Of a stretch of DNA of 22,328 bases, positions 11,123 through 19,782 are shown one piece after another; position 1 is the first letter of the stretch, and the number at the start of each line of letters is the position of its first letter. Under the pieces are notes generated by a model. The model searched no databases. It was given only the letters and a program-made list of their open reading frames with translations, and was not told the DNA's origin. A program made the translations under genes and the position numbers. The stretch is from a virus. The DNA is taken from positions 1 through 22,328 of the IMG/VR virus record IMGVR_UViG_3300035670_001334; one strand, 5' to 3'.

Positions 11123-12175
11123 TCAATCGGGCTTCGGCCCGTCCTCCGTGACCAAGGATTCCAGCACCGCTACGTTGCGGGCCAGTTCAGGATTGCTCGG
11201 TGCCCTTGCCGCTGCCACCTTGGCAAAACGCAGAGCCTCGCGGTAGCGGCCGACTTCCACGGCAGCACTCGCACCGATCGAGGCAGGCAGCGGGCCGTAT
11301 GCGTTCGGGTCGCTTGAATGCGTCTGGTCGCACTCCTGGCCCGCCACGGCAAGCCGCGAATAGTAAATGGCCGTTACGTGGTCGCCGATCTCGTAGGCCA
11401 TCGCGGCAAGCTCTGCACGTGCCTCCGGCTCCGGCGACTCAAGCACTGCCCGCAGTAGGTGCCGTTGCCGCTGATCTTTGTCGAGAACCGAAAGCCGACG
11501 ATAGGCAAACGACCGCTCGTGCGGCGTGCCGCCAGGCATGGCAAGGTAGTGGCGGTAGGCGTCGGCCGCGCCGGTTTCGTTCTCGGTGTCCAGTTCCCGA
11601 GCCAGATACCAGTGCATCCTGGCATCGTGCGGCGACTCCTTGACCGCTTGCTTGAGCAACGTCAAGTCCGACTTGTGCTTTTTGTTCGGGTCGCGGTGAT
11701 GGTGAATGACGACCGCCTCGGTATGGATCGGCTTGTGATCTACGGACCACGGCACGAGGCCTTCGTGGGTCGCGCCGGTCCAGCGGTAGCCGTGCCGCGA
11801 GTGGATGCGGTCGAGCCGGAACACTACGCCAGGCCCCCACCGGTACGGGTAGCGAAGCTGCGTGCAGCCATCCACCCACGCAGCCTCGATCGCTTGCCGC
11901 CAACCCGGCTCGATCGACTCGTCAAGGTCCAGGCGAACGGCAACGTCAACGTCGGCCGGAAGGTGCATCAGCGAGAGGTTGTGAGCGTCGTCCCAACGCC
12001 ACGGGATCGGCGAGCCGTGGTAGACCGTCACGCCAAGCGATTGCAGAGCCTCTACGGTGCCGTCCGTGCTGCCGGTGTCCGTGACCACCCGCACATCAGC
12101 CTCGCGGCAGCAAGCCTCCCAGCGTGCCACGTTCGCGGCTTCGTTCTTCGCCAAGGCATAGACGCCGATCTTCAT
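11123..12175 (-). CDS. GT2-family glycosyltransferase with TPR-like C-terminus
   Basis: A 350-residue enzyme. The GT-A domain shows ALAKNEAANVARW (7-19), VVTDTGSTDGTVEAL (30-44) and the DxD-type RLDLDESIEPGW (81-92, Asp83 and Asp85), which bind nucleotide-sugar and metal. About residues 190-345 are helical repeats of TPR type (for example AAVEVGRYREALRFAKVAAA), as in SunS-like and related glycosyltransferases that modify proteins. ATG 12175 overlaps the methyltransferase stop by ATGA; a longer frame start would bury that gene. As the last cassette gene, it ends one base before the tail terminator start. Donor sugar and acceptor are unknown; a virion protein is the natural guess. Confidence 0.85.
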   Translation of the reverse strand: MKIGVYALAKNEAANVARWEACCREADVRVVTDTGSTDGTVEALQSLGVTVYHGSPIPWRWDDAHNLSLMHLPADVDVAVRLDLDESIEPGWRQAIEAAWVDGCTQLRYPYRWGPGVVFRLDRIHSRHGYRWTGATHEGLVPWSVDHKPIHTEAVVIHHHRDPNKKHKSDLTLLKQAVKESPHDARMHWYLARELDTENETGAADAYRHYLAMPGGTPHERSFAYRRLSVLDKDQRQRHLLRAVLESPEPEARAELAAMAYEIGDHVTAIYYSRLAVAGQECDQTHSSDPNAYGPLPASIGASAAVEVGRYREALRFAKVAAARAPSNPELARNVAVLESLVTEDGPKPD

Positions 12176-12780
12176 ACCGCACGCTCCCACACGACAAGGA
12201 CTTCGCCGGCCGTGCCTTGGCACTCCGTACACCTCGCAGCACAACGGGTAGCCGAGCCGAGGCCGATGCCGGTTTTGATGTAGCGGACGGTGATGTCATC
12301 CGGCCGCTGCGGTGCCTCGCCGATCAAGTCCGCCTTGCAGTCGATCTCGATGTCTTCGCAGACGTAGATGCCGCCAGGAGCGAGGAGCGGCAGCAGAGCG
12401 TTTGCCGTGCGAATCTGGTCGGCGGCCAGGTGCGAGCCGTCGTCAATGATGAGGTCGAACGGGCCGAACTCTTTGATTGCCGCATGAACTCCACTGGCAC
12501 AAGCGTCCCCATAAAGACAGACAATGCGATTTGTCTCAAACATGCACGCCCGGTCAATATCCACGCCCACAATCTCCGCATTCAGGAAATACTCCTCCCA
12601 CATGCGAAGGCTCGCACCCTTGTGGACGCCGATTTCCAGAACCCGCTTCACTTTGTCCCGCCGGTGGCCCAGCAACTCGTGATACGCCGGCGTGTAGTTA
12701 TGGCAATGCTCGCCCGCGAGCGTGTGGTTGCCGCCCTTGTCGCAAGCGTGCTTCCGTGCCAGTTCGCAGAGCGGTGTCAT
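12172..12780 (-). CDS. Class I SAM methyltransferase, sugar O-methyltransferase type
   Basis: A 202-residue methyltransferase. The N-terminus has HNYTPAYHELL (27-37), a motif usual before the Rossmann domain in TylF/CmcI-like and related glycan methyltransferases. SAM motif I is LEIGVHKGAS (48-57), the acidic loop GVDID is at 72-76, FDLIIDDGSH is at 108-117 (likely metal/catalytic acidic residues), and LLPLLAPGGIYVCED is at 129-143. The C-terminus contains C180-x3-C184-x2-C187, possibly a small metal site. Both ends overlap neighbours by ATGA. A role in methylating a sugar added by the adjacent transferases is inferred from context; a different small acceptor is possible. Confidence 0.8.
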   Translation of the reverse strand: MTPLCELARKHACDKGGNHTLAGEHCHNYTPAYHELLGHRRDKVKRVLEIGVHKGASLRMWEEYFLNAEIVGVDIDRACMFETNRIVCLYGDACASGVHAAIKEFGPFDLIIDDGSHLAADQIRTANALLPLLAPGGIYVCEDIEIDCKADLIGEAPQRPDDITVRYIKTGIGLGSATRCAARCTECQGTAGEVLVVWERAV

Positions 12781-16042: not shown

Positions 16043-16375
16043 TCAGTTGCCGCCAGGGACGACGAGAACATCGACGGTCGTGTCGGTAGCGGCACGAGCC
16101 TTGGCGAGAAAGCCGAGGTCAACGCCGGTGGACGCCGAAGCGATGCCGGTCGTGGCCCAGTACTTGATCGCCGAACCCTGCGCACCGGTCGAACCGGTAA
16201 GGCAGGAAAACCGCCAGATGCCGCACGTTGAAACGGCACCAAGTTCATCAGCGGCGATCGCCGAATCAGCGACCGTCACCAGCGAACCGAGAACCACGAT
16301 CTCGCCAGCCGAAACGGCAGACGAAGGCGTGTAATCGAGCTTGTAGCCATCAGCCACACGAGAGGCAGTTGCCAT
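16043..16375 (-). CDS. Capsid cement protein, DUF2190 type
   Basis: A 110-residue protein starts at ATG 16375, after AAAGGA. The sequence VADGYKLDYTPSSAVSAGEI, then VVLGSLVTVADSAI, and the closing DTTVDVLVVPGGN match the DUF2190 family, small beta proteins that bind the outside of mature capsids and stabilise them. It directly follows the capsid gene, the usual place. A prominent hairpin lies in the 93-base gap between the two. Two Cys (C51 and C58, GIWRFSCLTG) are less usual. Being on the capsid surface, it is a possible target of the glycan cassette. Confidence 0.8.
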   Translation of the reverse strand: MATASRVADGYKLDYTPSSAVSAGEIVVLGSLVTVADSAIAADELGAVSTCGIWRFSCLTGSTGAQGSAIKYWATTGIASASTGVDLGFLAKARAATDTTVDVLVVPGGN

Positions 16376-16468: not shown

Positions 16469-18331
16469 TCACGAGGTCGCCATCTTGTAGGCACCCTTGG
16501 TCTCGGCCACGGCCACGCCGTAGGAGAAGTGCCCGCGGAACTGCACGCCCAACTGAGCGAAATCGACGTCAGCCGATTCCACCGTTGGGGCACGCTGCCC
16601 GTTGAGGTAGGCAATCTCCATCGCCGGGAGGTCCATCGGGCTTGCCACGAGCCACCACGTGGTGGCGGTCGTGAGGTAAGCCGAGCAGACCACCTCGTAC
16701 CGGCCGGCAAGCACGTTGGCATTGCCGCTGGCAGTCGTGTTGCCGCTGATGAGGAGCGAACTCGCCATCAGTTCAGCAGCAGCGATTTCCAGTTCCGGCG
16801 GAACCACGAGGTACTTCGCCGGGATACCCAGCGGGTTGCCGTCGGTGTCCGTCAGCTTCTTCCACGCGGCCACGGCGGCCTTGAGGGAAGTCAGGCTGAA
16901 GGCGTTGCCACCGCCAGGACTCGCGGCACCGTAACTGCCGGCCACGAAGGCCGCCCAGAAGTCGGTGTTGAGCTTGAGAGCCGCACCACGACCGAGCCGA
17001 GCCGGCACCTGAGACAGCATCCCGAGGTCGTCGTTGATGATGTCCACCATCGACACCTTCGTGAGCCGCCCGGTGAGCTTGGCCTGGATGGTCCGAGTCT
17101 CATCGGAAGCCGCCGCGTCCTTGATCTCGCCGGTGGGTCCGACGTCCAAGAAGTCGAAGCCGCCGTTCACGCGAACGCCGGTCATCGTCTTGTAGTCAGG
17201 CACCGAGCGAACCGAGGAAATCTTCTCAAACTCACGCTCGACGGCATCGAAGCCGGCTCGCATGAACTTGCCGTAGGTGGCCGCAAGCACGTTGCTGATC
17301 GAGTGCGTCGAGAACGCGCTCGCCAGAACTTCCTTGCAGTTGCCCTGGTCGATCCGGTAGTGCCCGGTGTAACCGTTGGCACGAGCCGCCTCGATCAGCA
17401 CCTCTTGCAGCGAGCCGCGGCCGTGCCGCTTGTCAGCGAGTTCCAGCGTCTTGGCATCGAATGCCTTCTCGACGTTGGGAAGCCCACCGGCAAGGCACAG
17501 CCCGGCCTCGATCACCTGCGGAGAGTTGACAGCCACAGCGTCAACCACGTGGACGGCCGGACTTTTGGCCCGATCGGCACGAGTCTCGGCAAGCCGCTCC
17601 TCTCGCAGCTTCGCAAGCACCACCTCGGCGACCGACTCAGCGGTCAGGCTCGCGCCTTCGCCGTTGGCCTTGATGCCGAGCGATGCTTCGACGGTCTTGT
17701 TCTCGGTCCCCACGGCGGCCTTCGCCGTGTCTTCCGCAGACGCCTTGACGTCTTCGGGCTTGTCGGTGGCCTTATCAGCCATAGGGTCAACCTCCGAACT
17801 CGCATCGGCTGCGATCGCCGCTGACGTATTGGCGTCAGCACCAAAGAGAACCAGCGAAACTTCCCGAAGCCGCGAGGCTCGGACGACGGTGAGCGGGCCA
17901 CTGAACTCGCGACCGTTGACGGTCACGCTCGTGCCCGGCTTGACGTATTCGGTGCGGTCAACGCTCGCACCGATCGACGCCTGGAGCGGCACGCCGGCCG
18001 ACCCGAGGCGAATGAGCTTGTCGCTATTCGGCTCGCCCCGGATGAGGTCGGCCGTGATGTTGAGCTGCCGCCCGGTGTTCTCGATGCCGGTGGACGCACC
18101 CACCACGCTATCGAGCGTGTTCATGTCCTCGCGGCCGTGGGCGTAGAGAACCGGCACGGTGCCGCCAGCCTTGACGCCAGCCAGGTCAACCACGAGCGGC
18201 ACGTCGGACCACGCCTGAGCGATCGCATCGCCGGTGTAGGCCACGATGTCAACGGTCGGCTGCCGCTCGCCATCGCCAGCAGCGAAGGCAAGGTCGGCCG
18301 AAAGGTTCAGCTTGTAGTTCTTCTTGCTCAT
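16469..18331 (-). CDS. Prohead protease / major capsid protein fusion
   Basis: A 620-residue polyprotein starts at ATG 18331 with GGAGG four bases upstream. Residues 1-170 look like an S78-type prohead protease: VLYAHGRED holds the likely catalytic His65, LQASIGAS the likely nucleophile Ser119, and RLREVSLVLFGADAN closes the domain. Residues 184-260 are Ala/Lys/Glu-rich, with a helix VAEVVLAKLREERLAETRA, like a scaffolding or delta region. Residues about 260-620 are the capsid protein (FSTHSISNVLAATYGKFMRA, DFWAAFVAGSYG, ending YGVAVAETKGAYKMATS), resembling gpT/HK97-fold shells. Such fusions are known in phages. An internal start at residue 184 may yield scaffold-capsid alone. Its stop precedes a hairpin. 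Confidence 0.9.
   Translation of the reverse strand: MSKKNYKLNLSADLAFAAGDGERQPTVDIVAYTGDAIAQAWSDVPLVVDLAGVKAGGTVPVLYAHGREDMNTLDSVVGASTGIENTGRQLNITADLIRGEPNSDKLIRLGSAGVPLQASIGASVDRTEYVKPGTSVTVNGREFSGPLTVVRASRLREVSLVLFGADANTSAAIAADASSEVDPMADKATDKPEDVKASAEDTAKAAVGTENKTVEASLGIKANGEGASLTAESVAEVVLAKLREERLAETRADRAKSPAVHVVDAVAVNSPQVIEAGLCLAGGLPNVEKAFDAKTLELADKRHGRGSLQEVLIEAARANGYTGHYRIDQGNCKEVLASAFSTHSISNVLAATYGKFMRAGFDAVEREFEKISSVRSVPDYKTMTGVRVNGGFDFLDVGPTGEIKDAAASDETRTIQAKLTGRLTKVSMVDIINDDLGMLSQVPARLGRGAALKLNTDFWAAFVAGSYGAASPGGGNAFSLTSLKAAVAAWKKLTDTDGNPLGIPAKYLVVPPELEIAAAELMASSLLISGNTTASGNANVLAGRYEVVCSAYLTTATTWWLVASPMDLPAMEIAYLNGQRAPTVESADVDFAQLGVQFRGHFSYGVAVAETKGAYKMATS
17780..17795 (-). promoter_or_regulatory. 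Internal ribosome binding site and ATG within the fusion gene
   Basis: GGAGG at 17795-17791, an 8-base spacer, and ATG at 17782-17780 are in frame with the fusion (codon 184). The ATG falls at the junction between the protease domain and the charged scaffold region, the expected place for a separately initiated scaffold-capsid product of 437 residues. The spacing equals the best ribosome binding sites elsewhere in this operon (genes at 3603 and 15971). The arrangement resembles lambda C/Nu3, where the scaffold starts inside the protease gene. Confidence 0.65.
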
Positions 18332-19782
18332 GCGTCCTCCGGGTCAGCGGCGACGGGTACGGCAACGTCCGACTCGTCAAGGCCGAGTTCTTCCATCAGT
18401 GCCTTCTCAGCAGCACGCTGCCGCAGCACGAGCCGCCAATCCTTGCCACGCCGACCGCAGACATCCGCAAGCGTGGCCATGTTGCCGGCCACCATCAGTA
18501 CGTCGGCTTCGGCTTCCTTCTTCGGGTCCACATGCTCAAAGCCGTCCCAAGTCCACGACCAGTTCCACTCCGCGAACGGAGGCAGGCCTCGAGGGATCAC
18601 GCCGTTAATGAGCGTTGCTTCGTCCAGCCAGGCATAGAACAGCGGATCGAGCCAGATACGCTCGACGTCCGACCGCTCCACGCCGATTGCCTTGCGGTAA
18701 ACCTGATAGTCGCCACGCATCGAGGAGTAGTTGGCAGACGACGAATCCATCGCCGCGACGATGTACGGCATGTCTAGGCAGCGGGCGATTTCGTTGAGAA
18801 TCCGACGCACGAACTGGTCGTGGTTGCTGGTCGGTTGCTCCGCCTTCATCTGCACGGGCTCCCACCCGTCAGGAGCGGCAATCGCCATGTTGCGAACAAT
18901 CGGCATCGTCTCGAACAGGTCGAGCGTCTTCGCGCCGGACGAATCCGCCGGCATCGTCGTCTTGAGGATCGCGGCGAAGCAGGCGGCAGTCTCGGCAGCA
19001 CTCACCACCGCGAGCGTGTAACGTCGCAGCATGGCGAACAGCTCGAGAGCCGGAGTGATCTCAGGCACGCCGCGGCTCTGGCCCGGTCGGGTGGCGTGGA
19101 ACCAGTGCAGCACCTTGTCTACGTCAACCCACTCGCCGTCCTGGCCCCAGCCGGAGAACGATGAGCCGGGATGGTACTTGGCGACCCAGTACGACACCGG
19201 GTTGCCGTCGTCATCGAAGCGGATGCCGTCCACCTCATTCGGCAGTTCGATCGTGCCGAGCGGCGAATAGACTTGATCCGCCTCAAGGAGCTTGACGTCC
19301 AGTTGCACCTTGCGGAACCGGCGGTTGTTGGTCTTGAGGCCGAACACCTCGCCGGAACCGATCTTGGCCTGCTTGCTCAAGCGGAGCTTCTGAGCCAGGT
19401 CGCACTCGACGGTCCAATCGAAGAACGCCGTCTCGACTTGCCGCGTCTTCCGCGGGTTGACGTCCGGCCCGAGGTCAAGCTGCAACCGCGGCCCGGTGCC
19501 AACCATGTCACGCGCCCAGGTCGAAGCCATGCCGGCGGCATACGAGTTGTTGGCAATCTCGTAGCGTGCCCGGTTGCGAATCTTCGTCCGCACGGCAGGC
19601 GACAACGCCGCATCGGCTGAGAAGCCGTCAGCGGCGGCCCAGTGCCGCTGGTTGTTCTCGTGCGTCTTGGCAGCGTCAAACGAGGCCCGCACGAGGCTCT
19701 GGATCGTGGCGTTCTGCACCTCGACCGTGGCCGCGAGTTGCGACTTGCTGGGGCCACGGTTGAACATGCCGAGAAGGCCCAT
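18328..19782 (-). CDS. Portal protein, lambda family
   Basis: A 484-residue portal that forms the dodecameric DNA channel at one capsid vertex. The N-terminal signature RARYEIANNSYAAGMASTWA (72-91) followed by MVGTGPRLQL is characteristic of the lambda gpB portal family, as are CLDMPYIVAAMDSSSANYSS in the middle and VERIWLDPLFYAWLDEA later. The last 30 residues are acidic (ALMEELGLDESDVAVPVAAD). ATG 19782 overlaps the stop of the gpW-like gene by one base, and its stop overlaps the fusion gene start by 4. Order terminase, gpW, portal, protease, capsid copies lambda. Confidence 0.93.
   Translation of the reverse strand: MGLLGMFNRGPSKSQLAATVEVQNATIQSLVRASFDAAKTHENNQRHWAAADGFSADAALSPAVRTKIRNRARYEIANNSYAAGMASTWARDMVGTGPRLQLDLGPDVNPRKTRQVETAFFDWTVECDLAQKLRLSKQAKIGSGEVFGLKTNNRRFRKVQLDVKLLEADQVYSPLGTIELPNEVDGIRFDDDGNPVSYWVAKYHPGSSFSGWGQDGEWVDVDKVLHWFHATRPGQSRGVPEITPALELFAMLRRYTLAVVSAAETAACFAAILKTTMPADSSGAKTLDLFETMPIVRNMAIAAPDGWEPVQMKAEQPTSNHDQFVRRILNEIARCLDMPYIVAAMDSSSANYSSMRGDYQVYRKAIGVERSDVERIWLDPLFYAWLDEATLINGVIPRGLPPFAEWNWSWTWDGFEHVDPKKEAEADVLMVAGNMATLADVCGRRGKDWRLVLRQRAAEKALMEELGLDESDVAVPVAADPEDA

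Follow-up and report, generated by a model that had tools for sequence, protein, structure and literature searches.

How can a phage build its shell from a capsid subunit that is made as one chain with a protease? Such a fusion seems to force one protease per subunit, hundreds of them per T=7 shell, and T=7 is the geometry of the Gifsy-2 capsid (PMC8814770). The question is raised by one gene of the window—the whole stretch of 22,328 bases analysed here, a virus record—in which protease, scaffold and capsid share a single open reading frame of 620 codons plus stop (16469-18331, minus strand). We consider here whether a second start inside this gene could provide the answer.

Layout of the fused gene

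All head genes of the window lie on the minus strand: the terminase (22280-20079), the portal gene 5' of the fusion (18328-19782; PF05136, 1.2e-58), the fusion itself and, 3' of it, a head decoration or cement gene (16043-16375; PF09956, 4.8e-12, and phrog_122). The start of the fusion and the stop of the portal gene overlap in an ATGA (18328-18331, minus strand), an arrangement which likely couples their translation, and the start is preceded by a GGAGG (18336-18340, minus strand) at a distance of four nucleotides. Elsewhere among the structural genes, the product of 11123-12244 (minus strand) matches phrog_13126, 'beta-1,4-glycosyltransferase' (3.8e-61), with weak TPR matches besides; it may serve sugar modification on the phage or host surface. 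Rfam and tRNA scans gave no matches.

The profile phrog_4523 ('major head and protease protein') covers nearly the whole fusion protein (residues 10-618), at 1.4e-51. Its protease domain (residues 22-176; 17804-18268, minus strand), modelled alone with AlphaFold, reaches a pLDDT of 93.4 and has the fold of T4 gp21 and of the herpesvirus assemblin: the model compares with the T4 capsid assembly protease gp21 at Z 11.2, with an rmsd of 2.2 across 120 residues, and with herpesvirus proteases at Z up to 9.7 (VZV protease 9.7). The profile PF04586 (Peptidase_S78) matches 10 of the 40 aligned members and gives no match in the window protein itself. Two putative catalytic residues, His65 (codon 18137-18139, minus strand) and Ser119 (17975-17977, minus strand), show no variation in any sequence that covers the aligned position; Glu157 (17861-17863, minus strand), the putative third one, is invariant in the 40-member alignment and differs in one partial distant homologue, L176. 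The fold and the conserved Ser and His of the Peptidase S78/assemblin clan are thus both present in what we regard as a putative protease. By its modelled fold and its putative His-Ser-Glu residues, it is assigned to the S78-type branch (phrog_4523), the same as that of RcKemmy and B8b; no ClpP-type N-terminal protease was recognised in the window gene.

At the other end, the HK97-type capsid domain occupies residues 342-620 (16472-17308, minus strand), and is identified by PF25209 (Phage_capsid_4, residues 342-616, 4.7e-37) and PF10124 (Mu-like gpT, residues 480-553, 3.7e-8). From its position, the middle region would be the scaffold, so that the three parts of a tripartite capsid gene are found in one open reading frame adjoining the portal. 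The whole 620-residue chain is poorly modelled by AlphaFold (pLDDT 47.7), and in this model the linker between protease and scaffold (residues 163-230) has low confidence and is probably disordered.

The nested site and its close family

The original prediction placed a GGAGG-N8-ATG in this gene, without giving a strand. It is found on the minus strand, where 17795-17777 reads GGAGG-TTGACCCT-ATG-GCT: the Shine-Dalgarno (SD) sequence GGAGG at 17795-17791, the spacer TTGACCCT and the ATG at 17782-17780. As (18331-17782)/3 equals 183, this ATG is codon 184 of 620, in frame with the gene. The 437 codons that remain from Met184, followed by the stop (16469-17782), agree with the predicted chain length and comprise a delta-like scaffold and the capsid; Met184 itself falls after the protease domain, in the linker, hence at the protease/scaffold boundary where it had been announced. 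Paired with the anti-SD, the nested site has a duplex energy of -10.2 kcal/mol, vs -8.9 at the gene's own start.

A portal-anchored search yielded 68 further fused genes, mostly at 53-61% identity, and thus a close family of 69 with that of the window. Met184 is invariant in all 69, in 34 distinct DNA contexts. In these genes the residue just before it may be T, P, S, N or L, the preceding one is equally variable, and the following one is always Ser or Ala. More generally the residues 5' of the Met vary (NEV, NEG, NGEG, SGD, QGEV, PGEE, TGD), and an SD is encoded in every version. The 'perfect GGAGG' of the prediction is therefore present in the window without being conserved as an exact string; the conserved element is an SD-like string with its ATG, the relatives using GAGG, GGGGA, AGGAG, GGAGAAG or AAGGGGG. 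Over 578 aligned codon columns from 29 distinct homologues, the nested site and the adjacent column have the strongest worst-case SD (maximum -5.5 to -6.1), and the nested Met is the only invariant Met column; the other conserved Mets are without a consistent SD. No structural reason for keeping a Met at this place is apparent in the modelled linker.

A constraint on the protein might nevertheless be proposed: the Met and the acidic or Gly residues before it could form a cleavage or recognition site of the protease, the SD being a by-product of Glu and Gly codons. The close family offers some ground for this, since its Glu-Val codons supply GAGG and since synonymous recoding of these related sequences gives a mean of -6.0 vs -7.2 observed, 3 of 2000 null sets being as strong. 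The recoding test is weak alone because Glu, Val and Gly codons already encode GAGG, and we therefore relied on distant relatives, discussed below.

The close family also shows a gene-wide peak of excess synonymous identity, centred on residues 189-210, i.e. in the first codons of the nested ORF; its first 27 codons (17702-17782, minus strand) hold the maximum of the gene. Between the window and relative L003, 36 informative codons spanning the nested site are without any synonymous change (permutation p 0.0016). The observation concerns 17702-17782 of the window and the linker of L003-L085, where the part after the nested start is the best conserved of the gene at synonymous sites. Part of this similarity might come from exchange of DNA: the window and L078, otherwise diverged, have blocks of linker DNA in common (GTCAAGGC..GCGGAAGACACGGCG), which suggests that the linker may be where protease and capsid modules are joined by recombination. 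These blocks suggest an input of recombination, so that we count the synonymous peak as supporting the internal start and not as decisive. Taken as the whole explanation, recombination appears unlikely: it covers the low synonymous divergence, including the 36-codon run, but not the in-frame SD-ATG kept amid unrelated linker DNA. It is moreover compatible with internal initiation, and both may hold.

Two other sources of the synonymous peak were considered and rejected. Overlapping sense frames are open in only 9/29 (+1) and 3/29 (+2) homologues; on the antisense strand two are open in 24-26 of the 29, as is often the case in GC-rich DNA. As for a conserved RNA structure, the 114 columns yield a weak consensus fold (-15.5 kcal/mol), and the site has unusually little structure.

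Distant relatives, cultured phages and controls

Used as a single query in a protein search of genome contigs, the window protein found no relative, while an alignment query succeeded: in bacterial genomes it retrieved 28 prophage-type relatives at 27-41% identity. Most are labelled Planctomycetota, and the host of the window is therefore probably a planctomycete. Their linkers have no recognisable amino-acid motif in common with the window, and nearly all keep an in-frame ATG with an SD (AGGAG, GGAGG, GAGGA, AAGGA or similar) about 5-10 nt before it. The residues before the boundary Met are diverse among distant relatives (KEGKN, NTEERT, EQGGSK, QKENQ, NTGATK, EEFEH, QSKGKT) and still encode an SD at about 5-11 nt. 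The original prediction had pointed to homologues keeping the amino acids and losing the motif as the observation that would speak against it; the opposite is seen, the amino acids change and the SD and ATG stay, including in unrelated linkers.

Fusions of cultured phages were examined for both types of protease, those with S78-type (RcKemmy, LPPA33, S1, PBb002, Shewanella phage 1/44, B8b, vibriophages and Paenibacillus Pd_22F) and those with ClpP-type (Gifsy-2, Fels-1, mEp460, mEp043, MD8, Pmp14, Pben1, Sc-Yong805-1, PE001 and a gut phage). The boundary ATG is present (Met188 in mEp460, Met211 in mEp043, codon 221 in Gifsy-2), with an SD in nearly all; the SD is weak in PE001 and Pben1, and in vibriophage PE001 the ATG lies just beyond the fixed window of 60 codons used below. 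The boundary SD-ATG thus accompanies two unrelated protease folds. In this respect the original prediction was too narrow: the feature belongs to most of the protease-scaffold-capsid genes examined, ClpP-type ones included.

These genes speak against a constraint on the protein: distant relatives devoid of a common motif before the Met still encode the SD, and so do ClpP-type fusions. Such a constraint would also leave unexplained two controls. When clusters at <45% identity are considered, the 60 codons that follow the protease domain include an in-frame SD-ATG in 20/22, compared with 14% of windows in the remainder of these genes (binomial 1.6e-15; codon-permutation Fisher 1.6e-10), and the two other frames have it in 3/22 and 0/22 clusters only. 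The true anti-SD ranks first among 201 9-mers of the same composition at the boundary sites. We consequently hold a protein-level origin of the motif to be very unlikely. Chance is more improbable still, close to negligible: these genes are GC-rich with purine-rich codons, and SD-like strings with dG <= -5 occur at about 22% of their codon positions, but the within-gene, permutation, frame and anti-SD controls all contradict it. In addition the boundary site carries less structure than the gene in general (mean percentile 0.12, Wilcoxon 1.2e-7). For the anti-SD ranking and the folding comparison 38 genes were used, part of which are related to each other; in four (L073, L147, Pben1, PE001) the boundary ATG was assigned by hand.

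A few relatives depart from this picture. L164 and L169, two out of three related fused genes of Pirellulales (Rhodopirellula/Pirellula), have no convincing SD-ATG in the linker, and in their kin L167 the SD-ATG lies in a Glu-rich stretch and could be due to chance. Either a secondary loss or another way of setting the ratio of products could account for L164 and L169. In L161 the scaffold part is absent and the SD-ATG stands directly before the capsid. The nested ORFs of six planctomycete prophages (L157, L158, L163, L172, L174, L178) open with a common small motif, roughly M-x-F/Y-E/K-x-W-L...G...L...Q...Y/F, which is absent from the window's family and is possibly an extra N-terminal module of the scaffold.

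Other relatives carry the two parts as distinct genes. In Faecalibacterium phage FP_Epona (gp38, gp39) and in Dulem virus 34, homologous protease and scaffold-capsid are encoded by two non-overlapping genes, the second with its own SD and starting after the same boundary; the nested ORF of the window thus has real genes as counterparts in other phages. L162 has a capsid ORF without fused protease. In Vibrio phage PhiPS02 (L201:2423-4349) the annotated genes for a ClpP-type protease and for the capsid share 137 nt in different frames, a layout between split and fused. Given FP_Epona, Dulem virus 34 and PhiPS02, a true start may have existed here in the ancestor, and it could then be imagined that the SD and ATG of the fused genes are left over from a once-separate scaffold-capsid gene and no longer initiate. 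Such a relic would decay, whereas the SD and ATG outlast the full replacement of the nearby amino acids (<45% identity) as well as two types of protease; there is only a slight probability that they have fallen silent.

Predicted products and known systems

Internal initiation at Met184, giving a protease-free scaffold-capsid precursor, is therefore our preferred reading, to which we attach a probability of roughly 0.88 on the strength of sequence comparisons. Sequence evolution gives strong support to the internal start; initiation itself, the product ratio, the co-assembly and the cleavage are steps that we infer from it. Initiation at 18331, coupled to the portal by the ATGA overlap, would give the 620-residue protease-scaffold-capsid chain, and ribosomes binding the internal SD (17795-17791) would begin at Met184, their product being a scaffold-capsid precursor of 437 residues, the equivalent of a precursor of the HK97 gp5 type. 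Both chains would co-assemble through their common scaffold/capsid part, so that each prohead receives protease-bearing chains as a minority and the scaffold-capsid chain as the majority; after assembly the protease would excise itself and the scaffold region, leaving the capsid domain. It is plausible, as the original prediction reasoned, that many scaffold-capsid chains are made per protease chain.

The two halves of such a system are already known separately: nested starts in protease-scaffold genes, as in lambda C/Nu3, and tripartite capsid genes, as in Gifsy-2 and MD8. Gene C of lambda encodes a protease with a nested in-frame scaffold, Nu3 (Shaw and Murialdo 1980, as cited in PMC8508860). 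The parallel drawn with it by the original prediction is apt: the same scan applied to gene C detects codon 309 as the only strong in-frame SD-ATG, situated like Met184 between protease and scaffold. RefSeq places the nu3 start at codon 239 of C (L202:633, NC_001416 position 5132), which is without SD, and this annotation may be wrong. Lambda and the window have in common an internal in-frame start at this boundary, and one gene for two products with and without protease, predicted in our case. They differ in the protease, S49-type in lambda and S78/assemblin-like here, and above all in the capsid: that of lambda, gpE, is a separate gene and the nested product is scaffold only, whereas the nested ORF of the window carries the major capsid (PF25209). 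The nested start described here would apply to the capsid what lambda C/Nu3 does with the scaffold.

One gene for protease, scaffold and capsid has been described as gp5 of Pseudomonas phage MD8 (PMC8508860) and as the tripartite capsid gene of Salmonella phage Gifsy-2 (Effantin 2010, via PMC8814770). As in the window, the three parts form one ORF directly after the portal, and both sequences have the boundary SD-ATG as well; their proteases are ClpP-type, unlike that of the window. The MD8 paper mentions no internal start: the word 'internal' is absent from it and 'nested' is used for spanins only (PMC8508860). In the literature examined, a coverage which leaves the Gifsy-2 study of Effantin 2010 outside, we found no report of a nested start in fused genes.

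Beyond phages, the protease fold of the window recalls another nested arrangement. The UL26/UL26.5 genes of herpesviruses encode a maturational protease-scaffold and a nested scaffold, the latter from a separate nested transcript, and their capsid gene is separate. The likeness with the window resides in the same protease fold and in a minority protease chain sharing its scaffold part with an abundant nested chain; the difference, in a ribosome-binding site within one ORF instead of a separate transcript and a separate capsid gene. As for HK97, it keeps the protease (gp4) and the delta-domain capsid (gp5) as separate genes (see also PMC8508860), contrary to the fused gene of the window; its protease is also S78-type, and the 437-residue product of the window has the layout of gp5, a delta-region followed by the capsid.

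A wider proposal can be made, for which the balance tips to the favorable side with less assurance than for the window alone: a start nested at the boundary would be near-universal in the fused protease-scaffold-capsid genes of tailed phages, so far undescribed and independently retained in genes whose protease folds are of two unrelated types, the capsid being made mainly from this unannotated internal start and the full-length chain being the minor form that delivers the protease. A conserved internal start would resolve the 1:1 problem posed by the fusion and turn the precursor assumed for heads of the Gifsy-2/MD8 type into a testable two-product system. If this is true, it is the minor product that databases list as the major capsid protein of these phages, which would bear on capsid annotation, on structural work and on structure-based classification.
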